Shown: in pieces, positions 6,378 to 32,688 of the stretch
How positions within the stretch are numbered: the stretch's first letter is position 1
How the letters are laid out: each line of letters starts with the position of its first letter
Virus record (IMG/VR): IMGVR_UViG_3300037247_002101
Coordinates: 1 to 35,980 of that record
DNA length: 35,980 bases
Origin: a virus
Reading direction: 5' to 3' (one strand)
The notes under the pieces: generated by a model
Database searches by the model: none
The model's input: the letters and a program-made list of their open reading frames with translations, nothing else
Told to the model about the DNA's origin: nothing
Made by a program: the position numbers and the translations under genes

Positions 6378-8123
6378 TTAATTACTATCGATTACTATAT
6401 TATAAAGATTTCCGAATTTTTCTTCGTTTAATTCAAGTGAAGCTTGAAAAATTTTGTCTCTAGCTTCACCCACTTTTGTAAGTAATTTTGACGCTTTACT
6501 ACCAAGAAAACCGTGCCCAATGCTACTAAGCAAAGGATTTTTTCTAACAAAGTCAGCGTAAGAGCTTATAGGTTCTCTTTTTCTTACTTTACCTTCTTGA
6601 TAACCGGCATATAAGTATGTTGCTGGAACACTCAAAAGCATGCTAGTTAGAAAACCTAAACCTTCTGCTGTTTTTTCTAAAAACTGCTTTTGAATTCCCA
6701 TAGTTCCAACAGTTGCCCCACCAATGAGTATAGGCAACAACCATGGATTTCTAGCTATTAACGCCCTTACTCCCTCTGCTTGTCCTACAGAATTCATTAA
6801 TCTTGATAATCCGTAATACAATCCGCCTAGGGCAGCCAAAGGTAGTAAAGGATTCTTTATTGGTAAAATTATCGGCACCTGCTCTGCGGATTGTGTAACC
6901 ATTTTATCATCCGGCATATCTTTTAAAGGAGGCACAATGCCAGCCTGTTCCATTCTACTTCCTTTTTGATGGCCTATATCAAGCGATGCGTACTTTTCTA
7001 ATATGCGTGCCATTACAACTGGTTTTGTTAAAGGCGCCCTTTCCAAGTAATCTGGATACGATTTTAATACATTTGCAACTTTTTCACTAAAATAATTGCA
7101 TCCTATATCATTTGGAATAATAGGTTTTATATCATCGTGAATAATAAAAGTAACGTTTTCTTTTTCCAGTTCTTCTGCTAATTTTTCTTGCCCTTTAGAG
7201 GTCAATGCTAATTTCTGGAATTCAGCTTTTTTAGGCATTACACGCATTGCTACAAGGGTACTTAAAACCTCGTTTAATGGTGCTGACCCTGCCAGATCAC
7301 CTACCATTTTTGCAGGCATGTCCGGTTGTGAATCAACTATCAACCTACTTGGATCTGGTCCAGCGTTGTCTACTTCACTTTCTACTATCTTGACAATATC
7401 AGCTTCTTTAATACCAGCATCTTTTAACTCTTCTGCGGTTTTTATAGCGGAAGGAATAACAACACTGTTGTCGCTGGCTACTTTCTTTAGGGTGTAAGCC
7501 GTACGATCCGCAGGGACGTGAACAAAGCTGATATCAAAAAACTTAGGTTTTGTATTAATGACATAGACTTTTCTTCCATCAGGAAGAACTTTATTCATCA
7601 TAGTTCTTGCATGTTCACAATAATCTTGTATTCTCGGCGCTCTATTACCACAAATAGAACATTCATCATATGGGACCCTTGATCCCATAGAAATAGGTGG
7701 GAACTCACCATCGTCAATCTTCTTTTTTAAGTCAGGAGCTGCATTTATATCTAATCCAATAACTAACTCTACACGATGCATTTTATGATTATAATGTGAA
7801 TATAATATTTCTCCGTAAATTCTATGTCCTAATTTGGGTTTATTTCTGTGATGACGATAAACATTGCCTAATGATTCAAAAGTCTTATGATATTCAACCA
7901 AAGCAGGTTCAGGAAAATAATCCCCATTACGATTACTTCCATAAAATTCTCCGGCTCCTAAAGCATTAACTAGAAGAAAATACCTTTTCAAATCTGGCAT
8001 TAATTTCTGTAAAAATTCTTGAAGTTCCGGATCATAAGAAGCAGTTTTTTCCAATACTCCAGGATGTATAAGAGATATTTCTACGCCTTCATCGCCTGGA
8101 TAATAATCTAAGTATTTAATCAT
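6378..8123 (-). CDS. Prohead (capsid maturation) protease-like protein with membrane-like C-terminal region
   Basis: 581 aa, beginning MIKYLDYYPGDEG. Residues about 55-215 look like a head maturation protease: NRNGDYFPEPALVEYHKTF, YRHHRNKPKLGHRIYGEI, then GEFPPISMGSRV, where Ser in ISMG matches the nucleophile position of the HK97-type LSIGF motif, and nearby His residues could be catalytic. A cysteine pair (CSICGN) plus DYCEH may bind metal. The C-terminal half has several EK.A motifs and glycine-rich hydrophobic stretches (LPLAALGGLYYGL, LPILIGGATVGTMG). It would process scaffold and capsid N-arms. It overlaps the upstream gene by ATGA. The protease call rests on motif order, not alignment. 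Confidence 0.65.
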   Translation of the reverse strand: MIKYLDYYPGDEGVEISLIHPGVLEKTASYDPELQEFLQKLMPDLKRYFLLVNALGAGEFYGSNRNGDYFPEPALVEYHKTFESLGNVYRHHRNKPKLGHRIYGEILYSHYNHKMHRVELVIGLDINAAPDLKKKIDDGEFPPISMGSRVPYDECSICGNRAPRIQDYCEHARTMMNKVLPDGRKVYVINTKPKFFDISFVHVPADRTAYTLKKVASDNSVVIPSAIKTAEELKDAGIKEADIVKIVESEVDNAGPDPSRLIVDSQPDMPAKMVGDLAGSAPLNEVLSTLVAMRVMPKKAEFQKLALTSKGQEKLAEELEKENVTFIIHDDIKPIIPNDIGCNYFSEKVANVLKSYPDYLERAPLTKPVVMARILEKYASLDIGHQKGSRMEQAGIVPPLKDMPDDKMVTQSAEQVPIILPIKNPLLPLAALGGLYYGLSRLMNSVGQAEGVRALIARNPWLLPILIGGATVGTMGIQKQFLEKTAEGLGFLTSMLLSVPATYLYAGYQEGKVRKREPISSYADFVRKNPLLSSIGHGFLGSKASKLLTKVGEARDKIFQASLELNEEKFGNLYNIVIDSN

Positions 8124-23100: not shown

Positions 23101-23298
23101 ATGCATTTTTTAAACAGAATTGGAGCAATAATTTTATTCGTATGCATAGCTGGAGCAACACTTTATGTTGCTTGCGAATCAACCCCTGGACTGATTTTTT
23201 GGTTGGTCTATCCGCTATTAACAGTCATAGGTCTTTACATGTGGCTTAGGGACTGGCACACTTATTTTCTCTTCAAATTCAAGTGGTATGACAAATGA
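23101..23298 (+). CDS. Small two-helix membrane protein
   Basis: 65 aa, beginning MHFLNRIGAIILFVCIAG. Two hydrophobic helices (about 7-25 and 31-49) and a C-terminal YMWLRDWHTYFLF. It is a paralogue of the protein at 23554-23769 (LNRIG start, YMW.RDW end). RBS GGAG lies 7 nt upstream. The stop overlaps the Lar-like gene by 4 nt. Confidence 0.72.
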   Translation: MHFLNRIGAIILFVCIAGATLYVACESTPGLIFWLVYPLLTVIGLYMWLRDWHTYFLFKFKWYDK

Positions 23299-23540
23299 AA
23301 AAGGTGGAATTGCTGGATTGCCCATTTTGCGGCGGTCAAGCTGAATTAGCACTATACTCTCATGATGAAAAATCTAACGGCGTAGCCGTTCGGTGTACGC
23401 GTTGTGGTGGAGCAACAGAACGTATTATCTATCAGTATGATGACATAAAATTTTCGGACCGTTTTCAAATTGTAGTAAAACGAGTGAAAGACTCCCAAGC
23501 AGAAGCTGCAAAACTATGGAATAAGAGGTATGATAATTAA
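23295..23540 (+). CDS. Lar-like restriction alleviation protein (zinc ribbon)
   Basis: 81 aa, beginning MKKVELLDCPFCGGQAEL. The Lar family pattern is present: CPFCGG, then about 21 residues later a second pair CTRCGG, and a C-terminal EAAKLWNKRY. Lar proteins of phages and prophages modulate host type I restriction-modification. This one lies between two paralogous membrane-protein genes and is coupled to the first by a 4-nt overlap. Confidence 0.8.
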   Translation: MKKVELLDCPFCGGQAELALYSHDEKSNGVAVRCTRCGGATERIIYQYDDIKFSDRFQIVVKRVKDSQAEAAKLWNKRYDN

Positions 23541-25718: not shown

Positions 25719-25725
25719 TTGGCGG

Positions 25726-25758
25726 AAAGGGTTACGTACGTAGCCCTTTTCTTTTTTA
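25726..25758 (+). terminator. Intrinsic terminator
   Basis: Stem AAAGGGTTAC / GTAGCCCTTT with loop GTAC (a T-G wobble inside), then TTCTTTTTT. Confidence 0.8.
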
Positions 25759-25788: not shown

Positions 25789-25809
25789 GAAGTTGTTTCA
25801 ATTAATGGG

Positions 25810-25836
25810 AAGGTCACATACGTGGCCTTTTCTTTT
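25810..25836 (+). terminator. Terminator/attenuator in leader of 25860 gene
   Basis: Stem AAGGTCAC / GTGGCCTT with loop ATAC, then TTCTTTTC. It lies between the element at 25769 and the RBS of the next gene. Confidence 0.65.
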
Positions 25837-26381: not shown

Positions 26382-26385
26382 CATG

Positions 26386-26580
26386 GTGAGCATGGATACG
26401 CAAGGTGTCGCCGACGAAGTGCTAGCTGGCGAAAGGTTGTTCATTTCAGTAACGATAGAACATACCTAGTAGTTAGTAAATCGCACTGTGGTCTGCAGGC
26501 GGGCGTAACACCCCGTAGAGGTATTATCAGAGACAGGAGTAATTACCTGTCTCGGGGGTTCGATTCCCTCCTTGCTCGCA
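26386..26580 (+). ncRNA. tRNA-like structured RNA (tmRNA-like or split tRNA)
   Basis: The 3' end holds a canonical T-arm, GGGGG TTCGATT CCCTC (26554-26570), followed by TGCTCGC and A (26573-26580). This last run pairs over 7 bp with GTGAGCA at 26386-26392, or alternatively with GCGGGCG at 26499-26505. An 8-bp hairpin, GAGACAGG / CCTGTCTC (26530-26553), abuts the T-arm, and AGGT-GTTC / GAAC-ACCT pairs in the 5' half. The long form (195 nt) recalls the tRNA-like end of tmRNA, but no convincing tag reading frame or G3-U70 pair is seen. The short form (82 nt) lacks a normal D-arm. No protein gene is needed to explain the region. CCA is not encoded. Confidence 0.4.
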
Positions 26581-26600
26581 TGTGTATTAAGACTTAATAT

Positions 26601-26625
26601 GGCATAAGAAAAGTGGATGTATATC
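26601..26625 (+). promoter_or_regulatory. GGCATAAGA promoter-like element
   Basis: ATGGCATAAGA followed by AAAGTGGATG and TATATC (10-nt gap instead of 6). It sits between the tRNA-like RNA and the next structured segment. Confidence 0.45.
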
Positions 26626-27058
26626 TTTTGATGCTCATTGGGTATCCATCCAATCGTAACATCGTCCGCGTTATTTCTTGGTCACTCCCACCAAGAAGCG
26701 GATCGGCAGTTAGACCCGCGCTGTTGTATGTATTTAGTATGCAGGTAACATACGTTGAATTTGTCGGGCTGCCTAAAAACTGCTTAAAGGGCAAGACTAA
26801 TAGTTCGTATATTCGGAGGAGATCATATGAACGGGCGAGCGGAAAAACAGAAATTCGCTGGAGGACTTTGGCAAGTCCGAGTCCCATCATCCCAGAGTCT
26901 TCGAGCAATATACTAAGAATGCTCTTAGTATATCTAAGTATATCGCTTGTATGGGCACATGGTGGTAGGGCGTGTCCAAACGGGAGATTCGTGATTGTAT
27001 CCTTACAATGAGTAGCCGGTATAGGGTCCTACATACGTAGGATCCTCATCCGGTTTTT
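26615..27058 (+). ncRNA. Long structured noncoding RNA candidate
   Basis: About 440 nt with no credible gene; the longest open frame (from 26613) overlaps the hairpins, has no RBS and no protein-like pattern. Stems seen: TTCTTGGT / ACCAAGAA inside CCGC / GCGG (about 26670-26703), GGACTT / AAGTCC (near 26870), and an 11-bp perfect hairpin ATATACTAAGA / TCTTAGTATAT (26908-26933). It ends in a terminator. It has its own promoter-like element. Large phage RNAs such as GOLLD and ROOL occupy similar positions beside tRNA-like sequences, but I cannot assign this to either class. Confidence 0.45.
27016..27058 (+). terminator. Terminator of the structured RNA
   Basis: Outer CCGG / CCGG and inner 10-bp stem AGGGTCCTAC / GTAGGATCCT with loop ATAC (27023-27046), then TTTTT. 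Confidence 0.65.
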
Positions 27059-27064
27059 CAAGTA

Positions 27065-27173
27065 GACAGAGGTTGTGGAGAGGAACTCTCCACTGATCGG
27101 GGTGTTGAAACCTAAATTTTTGCTGGCTGAAGATGGACACTGAGATCAAACCAGCACCTCTGTCCATTTTTTT
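27065..27173 (+). ncRNA. Multi-branch leader RNA ending in a U-tract (riboswitch/attenuator-like)
   Basis: The closing stem GACAGAGGT / ACCTCTGTC (27065-27073 with 27156-27164) encloses hairpin GTGGAGAG-GAA-CTCTCCAC (27075-27093), a small GGT / ACC hairpin near 27100, and TGCTGG / CCAGCA (27121-27126 with 27151-27156). Seven Ts follow directly (27167-27173), so the folded form is an intrinsic terminator. The AAGGAGG of the 27197 gene follows 10 nt later. The shape is that of a ligand- or protein-sensing attenuator; no known riboswitch class was recognised. Confidence 0.5.
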
Positions 27174-27196
27174 ACACACATATAAGGAGGTCCAAG

Positions 27197-27553
27197 ATGT
27201 TAATAAATGAAATTCCTTATGATAAGGACAAAGCAGATTCAATAACAAATCATATTTCTCTTGCCAATAAAGGTCAATTTTTTGAAGCCTGGTACATGCG
27301 AGAATACCATATGGTTAAACATTATGGCCTATCTGCGAAGCAGATATTCAAGAAAGTTTTTGGTAAGCAATTGACATGTGTCAATACAGATTGGTACCGT
27401 TGTTGGGTGTGGACATTCAGTAATACTGATCGCTCTGCTTGTATCTACTGCATGACTGATAAACGCGGTGTGCATTGGAAAATGGATATTGGTAGTGATT
27501 TGCGCGGTGTAATTGATTTGCGCGACGAGATAGAGAAGAAGTTAATTGCATGA
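27197..27553 (+). CDS. Unknown protein
   Basis: 118 aa, beginning MLINEIPYDKDKADS, with AAGGAGG 7 nt upstream. It has WYMREYHMVKHYGLSAKQIFKK, a Trp/Cys-rich middle (TDWYRCWVWTFSNTDRSA) and an acidic helical end, VIDLRDEIEKKL. No family is recognised. It follows the attenuator-like RNA and is coupled by ATGA to the first microprotein gene. Confidence 0.68.
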   Translation: MLINEIPYDKDKADSITNHISLANKGQFFEAWYMREYHMVKHYGLSAKQIFKKVFGKQLTCVNTDWYRCWVWTFSNTDRSACIYCMTDKRGVHWKMDIGSDLRGVIDLRDEIEKKLIA

Positions 27554-27699
27554 TAGTTGAACTTAGGAATTTTCATGTTATAATAATGGATCTTGAACTT
27601 TTTGATAAATATGTTTTCAACCTTCATACAATCTTTTTCGAGGAGAAGAGAACTAAACAGTGGGAAGTACTTTTAGCGGAGGTGAAAGGTGACAGTTAA
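27550..27699 (+). CDS. FHxIIxY-family microprotein 1
   Basis: 49 aa, beginning MIVELRNFHVIIMD. First of seven consecutive coupled paralogues. It is most like the next copy: both share LRNFHVII, F..HTIFF and W(E)...LAE. Starts ATGA on the previous stop codon. Confidence 0.7.
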   Translation: MIVELRNFHVIIMDLELFDKYVFNLHTIFFEEKRTKQWEVLLAEVKGDS

Positions 27700-27847
27700 A
27701 GTTGAACTTAGGAATTTTCATGTTATAATAAAGGATCATGATCTTTTCGAAGAGAATCTCTTCAATTTTCATACAATCTTTTTCGATGTCAGGAATAAAA
27801 AGCGATGGGAAATATTTTTAGCAGAGTGGAGAAGCAATGACGATTAA
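27689..27847 (+). CDS. FHxIIxY-family microprotein 2
   Basis: 52 aa from GTG at 27689 (VTVKVELRNFHVIIKD), chosen for GGAGG 6 nt upstream. At both DNA and protein level it is close to copy 1 (a shared run of CTTAGGAATTTTCATG), so this pair is the most recent duplication in the array. Confidence 0.7.
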   Translation: MTVKVELRNFHVIIKDHDLFEENLFNFHTIFFDVRNKKRWEIFLAEWRSNDD

Positions 27848-27977
27848 ACTATATAACTTTCGTTATATCATCGATTATAAAGATGTCCCCTGTTGTGGAG
27901 GATTTTACGCGATTAACGCGCACAGAATACAAGAACGTAGCCCAGCCATATATCTGGCCTGGTTGGAGGTAGAATGA
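27837..27977 (+). CDS. FHxIIxY-family microprotein 3
   Basis: 46 aa, beginning MTIKLYNFRYIIDYKDV, with GFYAINAHRI and a C-terminal PAIYLAWLEVE. Overlaps copy 2 by 11 nt. Most like copy 6 (GFY..HAHRI, PIYLA). Confidence 0.7.
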   Translation: MTIKLYNFRYIIDYKDVPCCGGFYAINAHRIQERSPAIYLAWLEVE

Positions 27978-28120
27978 AAGAAGTAAGACTTATTAACTTT
28001 CATTGTATTGTCCAATATCGTGAAACCAAAGATCATAGAGATAAATATTGGTTCGTACGAGCAGTACAGGTGAACTTAGAAGAATTCGCTGACGTGATTG
28101 ACCTGGTGACATTACGATGA
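27974..28120 (+). CDS. FHxIIxY-family microprotein 4
   Basis: 48 aa, beginning MKEVRLINFHCIVQYRE. It keeps the N-terminal motif (INFHCIVQY) but has a divergent, acidic C-terminal half. ATGA overlap with copy 3. Confidence 0.68.
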   Translation: MKEVRLINFHCIVQYRETKDHRDKYWFVRAVQVNLEEFADVIDLVTLR

Positions 28121-28296
28121 AAGTACGTTTACTTGATTTTCACTGTGTTATTAATTATAACGATATGTTATTGGGTTGCGGCATGTACGCAGTTAATTAC
28201 GAACGCGCGATACTATTTGAAGGCAAATCGTCTGCTGATACAGTGTATCTAGCTTTAATAATCCCGGAGGTTCAAGAGGATGAGAATACGACTTAG
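28117..28296 (+). CDS. FHxIIxY-family microprotein 5
   Basis: 59 aa, beginning MKVRLLDFHCVINYND, with GMYAVNYERAI and VYLALII. Longest member. ATGA overlap with copy 4, and its 3' end carries the GGAGG/GAGGA that serves copy 6. Confidence 0.7.
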   Translation: MKVRLLDFHCVINYNDMLLGCGMYAVNYERAILFEGKSSADTVYLALIIPEVQEDENTT

Positions 28297-28423
28297 AAAT
28301 TTTCATTATATTATTGATTACATGGATGTAGTATTTAGCCATGGTTTTTACTCAGCCCATGCTCATAGGATACGTAAACATGATACGCCAATATACCTTG
28401 CCCATATACAGGAGCCCTCATGA
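28280..28423 (+). CDS. FHxIIxY-family microprotein 6
   Basis: 47 aa, beginning MRIRLRNFHYIIDYMDV, with GFYSAHAHRIRK and PIYLAHIQEP. Overlaps copy 5 by 17 nt. Confidence 0.7.
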   Translation: MRIRLRNFHYIIDYMDVVFSHGFYSAHAHRIRKHDTPIYLAHIQEPS

Positions 28424-28557
28424 AAGTAAAATTTATTAAATGTAATTATATTCTTGATTATGCACCGACATTTGGGCAATCTGGTATAATGATTTTAGGA
28501 AAAATGGAAGATGGTCGAATAACAGGTACACTCCTTATGCCGTATGGAGGGAGATAA
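28420..28557 (+). CDS. FHxIIxY-family microprotein 7 (divergent)
   Basis: 45 aa, beginning MKVKFIKCNYILDYAPT. The FH pair is replaced by CN and the C-terminal half is different. It is the last and most divergent of the tandem run. ATGA overlap with copy 6. Its 3' end includes the GGAGGGAG RBS of the next gene. Confidence 0.62.
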   Translation: MKVKFIKCNYILDYAPTFGQSGIMILGKMEDGRITGTLLMPYGGR

Positions 28558-28558
28558 A

Positions 28559-28957
28559 ATGGACAAAACTTATTTGAAGAATTATGCAGGCGTTGAAGGT
28601 TGCGATGATGCTATTATTGCTGAGTTGTATTATGCTGATATTGAACACTATGTAATGCCAGTTAAATTTAACGGCGAAGTTCCAACGCGAATACTTGGTG
28701 AAATCAAGGGTTCGGGTTGGAGATTTAAAAGAGCCTGGACGTATTGGGTTTGTGAGGGGCCTGGTATTCCACCAAAGGAAGCCGTAGAATTACATAAGGA
28801 ATATGGCCGGGTTGTCAGAGTTTCTGGGCATTGTGGCTGTCCATCGCCATTAGAATGGTTTAAGGGTTTTGGATGTGGTTTATATCATGTAGACACATTA
28901 AAAGGGTTAAAGGCATTAGCCGATATGATCAAAAAAATCATGGCAAAAAATACCTAG
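28559..28957 (+). CDS. Unknown protein
   Basis: 132 aa from ATG at 28559 (MDKTYLKNYAGVEGCDD), with GGAGGGAG upstream. It has WRFKRAWTYWVCEGPG, a Cys/Gly cluster (SGHCGCPSPLEWFKGFGCG, about 94-112) that might bind metal, and a C-terminal helix. No family is recognised. Confidence 0.68.
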   Translation: MDKTYLKNYAGVEGCDDAIIAELYYADIEHYVMPVKFNGEVPTRILGEIKGSGWRFKRAWTYWVCEGPGIPPKEAVELHKEYGRVVRVSGHCGCPSPLEWFKGFGCGLYHVDTLKGLKALADMIKKIMAKNT

Positions 28958-28982
28958 GGTGTAAAACTTGTTTTATACCCTA
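28955..28982 (+). terminator. Hairpin overlapping the 28957 stop codon
   Basis: 12-bp stem TAGGGTGTAAAA / TTTTATACCCTA with loop CTTG. No U-run follows, so termination is uncertain. Confidence 0.45.
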
Positions 28983-29012
28983 ATACAACAAAAACAGGTT
29001 AGGAAGAATATT

Positions 29013-29258
29013 ATGGAAGACTATGAAAAACCATTGAGAAAATTCAAATTGATAGCTTATGACAAAAGATACAAGATACCCACTGATATTATTGAAGCCC
29101 ATTATTTTTGTACAGAACACCAAATGGTTGAATTTTATGTATACAAAAAAGAAAAAAAGCTAGAACATTTTTTGTGGGTTAGGTGTAGTAAAAACGATGA
29201 AATATTAGTAGCTGGTCCATTTGATTTAAGGAAATTATGGGTTGAAAAAATAGAGTGA
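29013..29258 (+). CDS. Small unknown protein
   Basis: 81 aa from ATG at 29013 (MEDYEKPLRKFKLIAYD), with AGGAAG upstream. The in-frame ATG at 28968 is inside the preceding hairpin and has no RBS. Charged, aromatic-rich, beta-like (MVEFYVYKKEKKLEHFLWVR). No family is recognised. Confidence 0.62.
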   Translation: MEDYEKPLRKFKLIAYDKRYKIPTDIIEAHYFCTEHQMVEFYVYKKEKKLEHFLWVRCSKNDEILVAGPFDLRKLWVEKIE

Positions 29259-29276
29259 CGCACGTCACTCTATTTT
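29250..29276 (+). terminator. Intrinsic terminator-like hairpin
   Basis: 10-bp perfect stem ATAGAGTGAC / GTCACTCTAT with loop GCAC, followed by TTTTACTT. It includes the stop codon of the 29013 gene. Confidence 0.65.
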
Positions 29277-29294
29277 ACTTAAAGGAAGGTACAC

Positions 29295-29489
29295 ATGAAA
29301 GATTTAGTAGCGAAATTAATTGTTATTTTAACTATTGGTGGCATAGTTGGCTCACTTGCATCTGCATTTCATATGGGCGGATGGAAAGCTTTCCTTACAT
29401 TTATGACGGCTTGTGGTATAGTATTTTTCGGAATAGGATTAATAATTTTAATAATCTGGGCTTTTCGCCGTGTCTTCGTTAAGGGTTAA
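29295..29489 (+). CDS. Small two-helix membrane protein
   Basis: 64 aa, beginning MKDLVAKLIVILTIGG. Hydrophobic helices at about 5-25 and 32-57 with a short loop (HMGGWKA) and a basic end, RRVFVKG, which would face the cytoplasm. RBS AAGGAAGG lies upstream. The function is unknown. Confidence 0.7.
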   Translation: MKDLVAKLIVILTIGGIVGSLASAFHMGGWKAFLTFMTACGIVFFGIGLIILIIWAFRRVFVKG

Positions 29490-29661
29490 TATTCTAGAAA
29501 TCACATGTGTAGTCCATGTTAATGATTTACTCTCTGATTGGATACCGCATAAGTATACATGTCACTGCCTAGGCTCTTATATTCGCAATAATAATGAGTA
29601 TCCTATATTTCTAGTAATGGAAGCAGAAAAGGATGCGAGGATCAAACATGCTAAAAGTTAA
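29470..29661 (+). CDS. FHxIIxY-family microprotein, dispersed copy 8
   Basis: 63 aa from GTG at 29470, reading VSSLRVNILEITCVVHVND. The block VNILEITCVVHVNDLL lines up with the N-terminal motif of the tandem array, with FH replaced by IT. The end has PIFLVMEAE, as in PIYLAWLE. The exact start is uncertain because no RBS is seen; it overlaps the membrane-protein gene by 20 nt. Confidence 0.5.
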   Translation: MSSLRVNILEITCVVHVNDLLSDWIPHKYTCHCLGSYIRNNNEYPIFLVMEAEKDARIKHAKS

Positions 29662-29806
29662 TCTAGTTGAGTTTCATTGCTTGATAATTTATAGAGACAT
29701 GCTTAAAAATGAATATATTATTAATAGCAGTCTACACTGGATAAATAATTCCCTTAACGATGGAGTGTATTTAGCGTCGTGGAAAAGTGGAATAAGAAAT
29801 TTATAA
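29648..29806 (+). CDS. FHxIIxY-family microprotein, dispersed copy 9
   Basis: 52 aa, beginning MLKVNLVEFHCLIIYRDM, ending VYLASWKSGIRNL. The family motif is clear (EFHCLIIYRDM). Overlaps copy 8 by 14 nt, repeating the coupled arrangement of the main array about 1.1 kb away. Confidence 0.66.
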   Translation: MLKVNLVEFHCLIIYRDMLKNEYIINSSLHWINNSLNDGVYLASWKSGIRNL

Positions 29807-29823
29807 TACAATAGGAGGTTATT

Positions 29824-30051
29824 ATGCCACTTACTTATTGTTTTCAGTGTGGAAAATATTTGCGTCTAGGACAAAAAAGAGAATGGGGAACTTTTTGTAA
29901 TGAGGAATGTTTTGAAAAATATACTGATAAAAGGAAAAGATTATTCGACCTTAAATTGGAATACTGGAAAGAAACGCATCCACGACTCCTTAATTATTAT
30001 TACGATAGTCGCAAAGTTGGCGGGTGGTATCCAGGTGTAGGAGAGGAATGA
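29824..30051 (+). CDS. Small zinc-finger protein
   Basis: 75 aa, beginning MPLTYCFQCGKYLRLGQ. CFQC (6-9) and FCNEECF (about 24-30) form a probable four-cysteine treble-clef/MYM-like finger. The remainder is a charged helix and YYYDSRKVGGWYPG. RBS AGGAGG lies upstream. DNA- or protein-binding is inferred. Confidence 0.7.
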   Translation: MPLTYCFQCGKYLRLGQKREWGTFCNEECFEKYTDKRKRLFDLKLEYWKETHPRLLNYYYDSRKVGGWYPGVGEE

Positions 30052-31916: not shown

Positions 31917-31968
31917 AGCTATAGATTATGAAGGTATTTTTCCATATCTTTATATGAAGGAGAATGCT

Positions 31969-32688
31969 ATGCTAAAAAAATTTCTTTTCTTGTTTTTTGT
32001 TTTATTACCCATGTTGATATTTGGGCAATATGACTCTGAAGTTTCATATTACCAAATGAACATTTTCAAAATTGAAGGGAACTATGAAGTTCCTATAGAA
32101 GTCACCAAAAATGAGGGTGATTCTTTAGACTTCATAGTTGTTTACGACACTATCAACCCACCTTATATCTCACCTTATGGTAGTTTTCTATACGACACTA
32201 AACAAATAGACAACGACCAGTCGTCATGGAATGGGAACGAAATGACTATCACAAGCGTGATAGACTATCCGGAAGGTATATACGAAATTACTTTGGATGC
32301 TGTAAAGCACTGGCTGGAAGAAGATTCTTTGCTCTATGGATACTGTACCAATGCTTTGTACCTGGAAGTGGATTCCAGCAATGCTACCGCACTAATTGAA
32401 GATCCCAGGATATACGGAATTAATTTGAAACAGAATTATCCTAACCCGTTTAACCCTACCACCACTATACAATATTCTATAAAAAACCAATCAATAGTAT
32501 CTCTGCATATAGTAGATATTACCGGAAGAGTCGAAGAGATATTTTCCGAAAGATTTCGGAGTCCCGGGACATATTATGTATCGATCGACGCAAGTAATCT
32601 GGCAAGTGGCAACTATATCTATTTCCTACGTGTTCAAGCAAATGGTAAAATACACATCTTAAAGAAAGTTTTTACAGTCTTAAAATAA
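31969..32688 (+). CDS. Secreted protein with type IX secretion C-terminal sorting domain
   Basis: 239 aa from ATG at 31969 (MLKKFLFLFFVLLPMLIFG), with GAAGGAG 6 nt upstream. The upstream in-frame ATG has no RBS. Residues 1-19 are a Sec signal peptide with likely cleavage before QYDS. The middle is beta-rich (about 20-145). The last 85 residues are a T9SS type A sorting domain: QNYPNPFNPTTTIQYSI, then VSLHIVDITGRVEEI, GTYYVSIDASNLASGNYIYFLRV and a basic Lys-rich end. Such cargo crosses the outer membrane by the host Por/T9SS system and is attached to or released from the surface. A surface role such as blocking rival phages is inference. Confidence 0.88.
   Translation: MLKKFLFLFFVLLPMLIFGQYDSEVSYYQMNIFKIEGNYEVPIEVTKNEGDSLDFIVVYDTINPPYISPYGSFLYDTKQIDNDQSSWNGNEMTITSVIDYPEGIYEITLDAVKHWLEEDSLLYGYCTNALYLEVDSSNATALIEDPRIYGINLKQNYPNPFNPTTTIQYSIKNQSIVSLHIVDITGRVEEIFSERFRSPGTYYVSIDASNLASGNYIYFLRVQANGKIHILKKVFTVLK

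Follow-up and report, generated by a model that had tools for sequence, protein, structure and literature searches.

A packed array of tiny paralogous genes in a viral genome record

The viral record IMGVR_UViG_3300037247_002101 is 35,980 bases long with a GC content of 36%, and we refer to this whole stretch as the window. On its forward strand, between positions 27550 and 29806, lie nine small open reading frames (ORFs), c1 to c9, that belong to a phage-specific family of small proteins with nine copies here (seven sure and two probable) and one copy at the same locus of a related phage. Seven of the ORFs, each encoding 45-59 amino acids (aa), are arranged in tandem at 27550-28557, and the two further copies start at 29470 and 29648. 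A preliminary description of this DNA, made from the letters alone, had listed nine such frames with overlaps of 4-17 nt among the seven, and all were present as described. That they form an array of paralogous, coupled tiny phage genes is well supported. Tiny overlapping genes of this kind are often missed in phage annotation.

Family membership and layout of the array

A profile made from all nine copies recovers all nine by construction, so the fair test was a leave-one-out profile for each copy. Models that included c7 and c8 recovered seven of the nine copies, each with an E of 1e-6 or lower, but missed those two. We then built models from a core of eight sequences, namely c1-c6, c9 and the copy from the related phage record IMGVR_UViG_3300027917_000021 (G003), using 1000 shuffles per copy and E-values over 734 ORFs. 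The copies c1 (49 aa, 27550-27699; 40.1 bits), c2 (52 aa, GTG start, 27689-27847; 65.7 bits), c3 (46 aa, 27837-27977; 34.5 bits), c4 (48 aa, 27974-28120; 21.9 bits), c5 (59 aa, 28117-28296; 30.6 bits), c6 (47 aa, 28280-28423; 42.6 bits) and c9 (52 aa, 29648-29806; 33.7 bits) were all recovered, at E 6e-6 to 1e-19. No shuffle out of 1000 scored as well for any of these or for the G003 copy. The full-length profile did not link c7 (45 aa, 28420-28557) or c8 (63 aa, GTG start, 29470-29661), which scored 2.8 bits (E 4.6) and were equalled by 3 and 69 of 1000 shuffles, respectively. We also ran a 16-position, start-anchored matrix, from which c7 and c8 had been left out, over 5663 N-termini (starts in up to four registers, both strands). 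It ranked c8 8th and c7 9th, right after the seven core copies, by a small margin (13.4 and 11.6 bits against 9.7 bits for the next entry). The seven copies c1-c6 and c9 clearly form one homologous family, and c7 and c8 are probable members supported at the N-terminus; c7 is in addition adjacent and coupled to the others. The paralogy proposed in the preliminary description is thus well supported by the leave-one-out profiles, with linkage beyond chance holding for c1-c6 and c9 but failing at full length for c7 and c8. Within the window the full profile gave these nine ORFs and then a best E of 0.11, with no further copy.

Three conserved blocks were seen in the core sequences. The first, at the start, reads xVxLxNFHxII(Y/D)xD, with the L and F in 8/8 sequences and the H in 7/8. 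A middle block contains aromatic residues and an H in six of the eight. The third, near the end, reads x(I/V/Y)(Y/F)LA, with L in 8/8 and A in 7/8, and occurs as (I/V)YLA or WExFLAE. An N-terminal motif had been described for all copies, and it holds for the core, but L.NFH is absent from c7 and c8 and D replaces Y in c1 and c2. The conserved blocks look strand-like with hydrophobic alternation, and few basic residues are conserved. A structure prediction for c2 (pLDDT 68, pTM 0.41) placed strands at residues 10-13, 22-30 and 39-45, near the three blocks.

Successive overlaps from c1 to c7 are 11, 11, 4, 4, 17 and 4 nt, and c8 and c9 overlap by 14 nt. The packed run comprises at least nine genes. 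It begins with a 118-aa gene (27197-27553, forward strand) that has a strong ribosome-binding site ahead of it, gave no match in Pfam and PHROG searches, and ends in a TGA that overlaps the ATG of c1 by 4 nt (ATGA). The run continues through c1-c7 to a gene of 132-137 aa on the same strand (28559-28957, with an ATG at 28559 or 28544), which therefore starts within or just after c7 and matches PHROG 35792 (E 1.8e-36), a group of unknown function. Start, stop and overlap are intact in all nine frames of the family. Ribosome-binding sites are clear at c2, c3, c4, c6 and c7, moderate at c9, and weak or lacking at c1, c5 and c8. Several of them are GGAGGT sequences at the end of the preceding ORF, where they are read as Glu-Val, so that part of such C-terminal tails doubles as the ribosome-binding site of the next gene.

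Selection and divergence among the copies

Selection was examined in seven pairs (Nei-Gojobori) drawn from c1, c2, c3, c5, c6, c9 and the G003 copy, with c4, c7 and c8 outside the set. Mismatch at codon positions 1, 2 and 3 was 0.36, 0.24 and 0.76 for c2 against the G003 copy and 0.35, 0.33 and 0.65 for c3 against c6; the c5/c6 pair was exceptional in that positions 1 and 3 were equal (0.60). We found pN of 0.29-0.31 against pS of 0.95-1.18 for c2/G003, c1/G003 and c3/c6, and pN of 0.39-0.43 against pS of 0.79-0.85 for c5 with c3, c6 and c9, although synonymous counts are near saturation in 6/7 pairs and exact ratios are not meaningful. Amino acid change is restrained in both halves, more so in the N-terminal 17 codons than in the rest. 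The excess of third-position change together with restrained amino acid change shows that these are translated proteins, and selection on the pairable copies (c1, c2, c3, c5, c6 and c9) is purifying, looser in the middle and tail. The C-terminal halves had been called strongly divergent. Middle and tail are indeed looser, but the third block is kept and the restraint extends to both halves. The rapid diversification read from that divergence is unproven, given the saturation of synonymous sites and this restraint.

These results bear on whether the copies have any function. Superfluous duplicates, or frames that are never translated, would fit the tiny size of the ORFs, the occurrence of relatives in G003 only and the lack of a good ribosome-binding site at c1, c5 and c8. 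We regard this as highly improbable, since the third-position excess and the restraint on amino acid change speak against it, as do the intact starts, stops and overlaps of all nine frames and the ribosome-binding sites at c2, c3, c4, c6 and c7. The same purifying selection, along with the tight coupling of the genes and the strand-like blocks with hydrophobic alternation, would agree with the copies assembling into one mixed oligomer, coupled translation supplying its subunits in similar amounts; divergence would then reflect specialised interfaces and not different targets. This too we consider unlikely, because the related phage, with its single copy, has no need of a mixed assembly, and much of the core has been lost from c7 and c8.

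The closest relationship within the window is between c1 and c2, which are 55% identical as proteins; the remaining pairs are 5-50% identical, with c3 and c6 at 50%. The bodies of c1 and c2 form a direct repeat of 127 nt on the forward strand (27555-27826; two copies, 145 nt apart) that is 80% identical with near-identical 5' ends. Over the first 17 codons of this pair dS was 0.05, compared to 1.71 over the remainder, with few sites behind the lower value (9.8 synonymous). This patchiness is consistent with a patch of gene conversion or recombination. We also considered the recurring word AATTTTCAT as a conserved DNA-level repeat and rejected it, because synonymous sites there are near saturation in most pairs, c1/c2 excepted.

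Tandem growth of phage genes is known from T-even phages, where an anti-defence locus, dmd-tifA, undergoes segmental amplification (PMC9391042) and where amplification can be driven by SegB (PMC13096335). The likeness lies in small phage genes placed head-to-tail in an accessory locus that grows by repeat recombination. In those accounts the amplifications are tandem repeats of one segment under laboratory selection, whereas the copies here are mostly 5-50% identical, and near-identical tandem copies, as in a recent amplification of the dmd-tifA type, were absent, with c1/c2 the best pair. The T-even loci also differ in that no defence target is known for the array. Unlike the SegB-driven case, no homing endonuclease was identified beside the array, where the gene at 29824 has only a weak treble-clef/HNH match (E 0.0058). 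Extra copies of one inhibitor might, as in laboratory amplifications, have been kept only for dose and then drifted. The head-to-tail order, the 127-nt repeat and the near identity of c1 and c2 at their 5' ends fit such an origin, and the dmd-tifA amplification in T4 sets a precedent (PMC9391042). We judge it quite unlikely, since apart from c1/c2 the copies are too different for simple dose and amino acid change is restrained.

The corresponding locus in related viruses

The large terminase subunit encoded in the window (PHROG 675, E 3.9e-67) has best matches in phage records that are about 31% identical. The terminase of G003 (155,895 bases) is 84% identical and gene order is largely the same. 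In G003 the family has a single copy, at 57975-57784 and 63 aa long from its ATG, that was matched at E 7e-8 by a profile made without it, and c2 is its closest counterpart in the window (58% identical). As in the window, it is flanked by the 24762 gene on one side and the 29824, 30268 and 30509 genes on the other, each present in G003 as a homologue. The interval between these flanking genes is about 1.5 kb in G003 compared to 4.1 kb here and holds different small genes.

The 30268 and 30509 genes also have homologues in two other viral records, L028 and L029, where unrelated genes precede the pair and whole-record profile searches found no family copy. In L028, a distant relative, the preceding genes encode a nicotinate phosphoribosyltransferase (Pfam E 5.7e-56) and a radical SAM protein (E 2.5e-9). 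The nicotinate phosphoribosyltransferase gene (6628-7788) is directly ahead of the 30268/30509 homologues and may serve in NAD-related counter-defence. Relatives of the 28559 gene were found in two viral contigs, L011 and L012, in which the whole-record search likewise gave no family copy.

The preliminary description had proposed a profile search of related phages. Whole-record searches of 10 viral records with one profile (A1) and of 8 with another (A4), 12 different records in all, gave one copy, in G003, and none in the other 11; the records may be fragments, so this absence is not final. Direct scans of viral contigs and genome contigs, with metagenome contigs outside their scope, found only G003, using short exact peptide patterns that distant relatives can escape. 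A tblastn search of c2 against 50,697 phage records returned one match (E 2) within a tail sheath gene, which we rejected as chance. The differing gene content across G003, L028 and L029 and the few positives indicate that this is a variable accessory interval and that the family is narrowly spread.

Possible functions and neighbouring elements

A gene for a Lar-like restriction-alleviation protein lies 4 kb upstream of the array (23295-23540; Pfam E 1.2e-9, PHROG E 2.1e-11). Because the tiny coupled genes lie in a variable interval with this gene upstream, and because the run contains no recognisable virion gene, we tentatively favour, from genomic context, a reading in which the copies are small host-directed inhibitors; we hold it to be plausible, though somewhat short of probable. 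The family would have grown by tandem duplication, as head-to-tail repeats like the c1/c2 pair recombined unequally, with partial gene conversion between neighbouring copies. Each copy would be a compact β-strand module of about 45-50 residues, its common core formed by the first and third blocks and its partner determined by the middle and tail. Through ATGA-type overlaps the translation of the copies would be coupled, and a single message would yield them all in similar amounts. In the least certain step, the module would be a host-directed accessory cassette, each copy being a small inhibitor that binds a host or defence protein, and the several copies would answer to different or variable binding partners. 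A bolder version is doubtful: it would make the array a phage-encoded repertoire of interchangeable miniature inhibitors, all built on a single three-stranded scaffold of about 45 residues, with unequal recombination and gene conversion among the coupled tiny genes as a continuing source of new binders for variable host or defence proteins.

Several results weigh against this host-directed reading. None of the ten family members matched Pfam at E 1, one of ten matched NCBIfam at chance level (E 0.08), and no member meets a curated Pfam or NCBIfam cut-off. PHROGs gave weak matches to single members only (best E 0.012) and a profile search of the Protein Data Bank (PDB) gave a best E of 1.6. A second structure model, with c5 first, failed (pLDDT 50), and Foldseek with the pLDDT 68 model found no match below E 4.7. 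There was no sign of positive selection in the tested pairs, and c2 and the G003 copy are rather well conserved (58%), which is not typical of an arms-race gene. Copies c1 and c2 are nearer to the G003 copy than c3-c9, suggesting that some duplications may predate the split from G003, and a comparison of two phages fits both expansion here and loss in G003. The anti-defence or inhibitor role suggested earlier is compatible with the accessory interval, the Lar-like gene and the differing accessory genes that precede the shared flanking pair in relatives, but no sequence or fold match points to any specific function. The PHROG match, of c4 to phrog_8084 (unknown function), was rejected as chance; it involved one of ten members, and at the loose cut-off applied, the family model also fired in 4 of 14 control genomes.

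Large lytic phages have early host-takeover islands, the SPO1 module among them, made up of tightly packed tiny genes that are mainly unrelated. The array resembles such islands in its packing, its overlapping starts and stops and its lack of database relatives, and differs in that a single family accounts for most of the run. Lar-like proteins (PF14354) are likewise small host-directed phage proteins, but the array family shows no sequence link to them. The literature searched, in the portions available, held no description of such an array, which is not proof of absence. A row of coupled, mostly homologous genes of 45-59 aa, with a lone counterpart in a relative, amounts to a natural experiment; comparing the single copy with nine copies asks whether phages widen their host-directed range by duplicating a minimal scaffold.

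Just ahead of the packed run is a stretch of about 800 nt (26382-27190) with a GC content of 46%, compared to 36% for the window. Both strands fold far better than shuffles (z -7.4), and it ends in a hairpin and T run just before the 27197 gene, making it a candidate large structured RNA. It has a tRNA-like T-arm word near 26560 and open frames of 132 aa (forward strand, GTG) and 104 aa (reverse strand, TTG); it reached the cut-off of no Rfam family and matched no phage record. The family might bind RNA and act with this candidate, which adjoins the first gene of the run, and the single G003 copy is likewise placed between two GC-rich stretches without a good gene. Such a partnership seems very unlikely to us: in G003 the stretches show only a slight gain in folding over shuffles (z -1.6 and -2.1), the family has few conserved basic residues, and the 27197 gene separates the RNA from the array.

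Three hairpins with loops around ATAC/ACGTA were found at 25724-25751, 25807-25832 and about 27026-27048, the first two terminator-like, and a similar TTACGTACGTAG hairpin is present in G003 downstream of its family copy. Further along the window, a gene at 31954-32688 encodes a protein of 244 aa whose match to Pfam Por_Secre_tail (E 1.7e-9) marks a secretion-system C-terminal sorting domain. We take this domain as a hint of a host in Bacteroidota or an allied phylum, although several genes carry strong GGAGG ribosome-binding sites.

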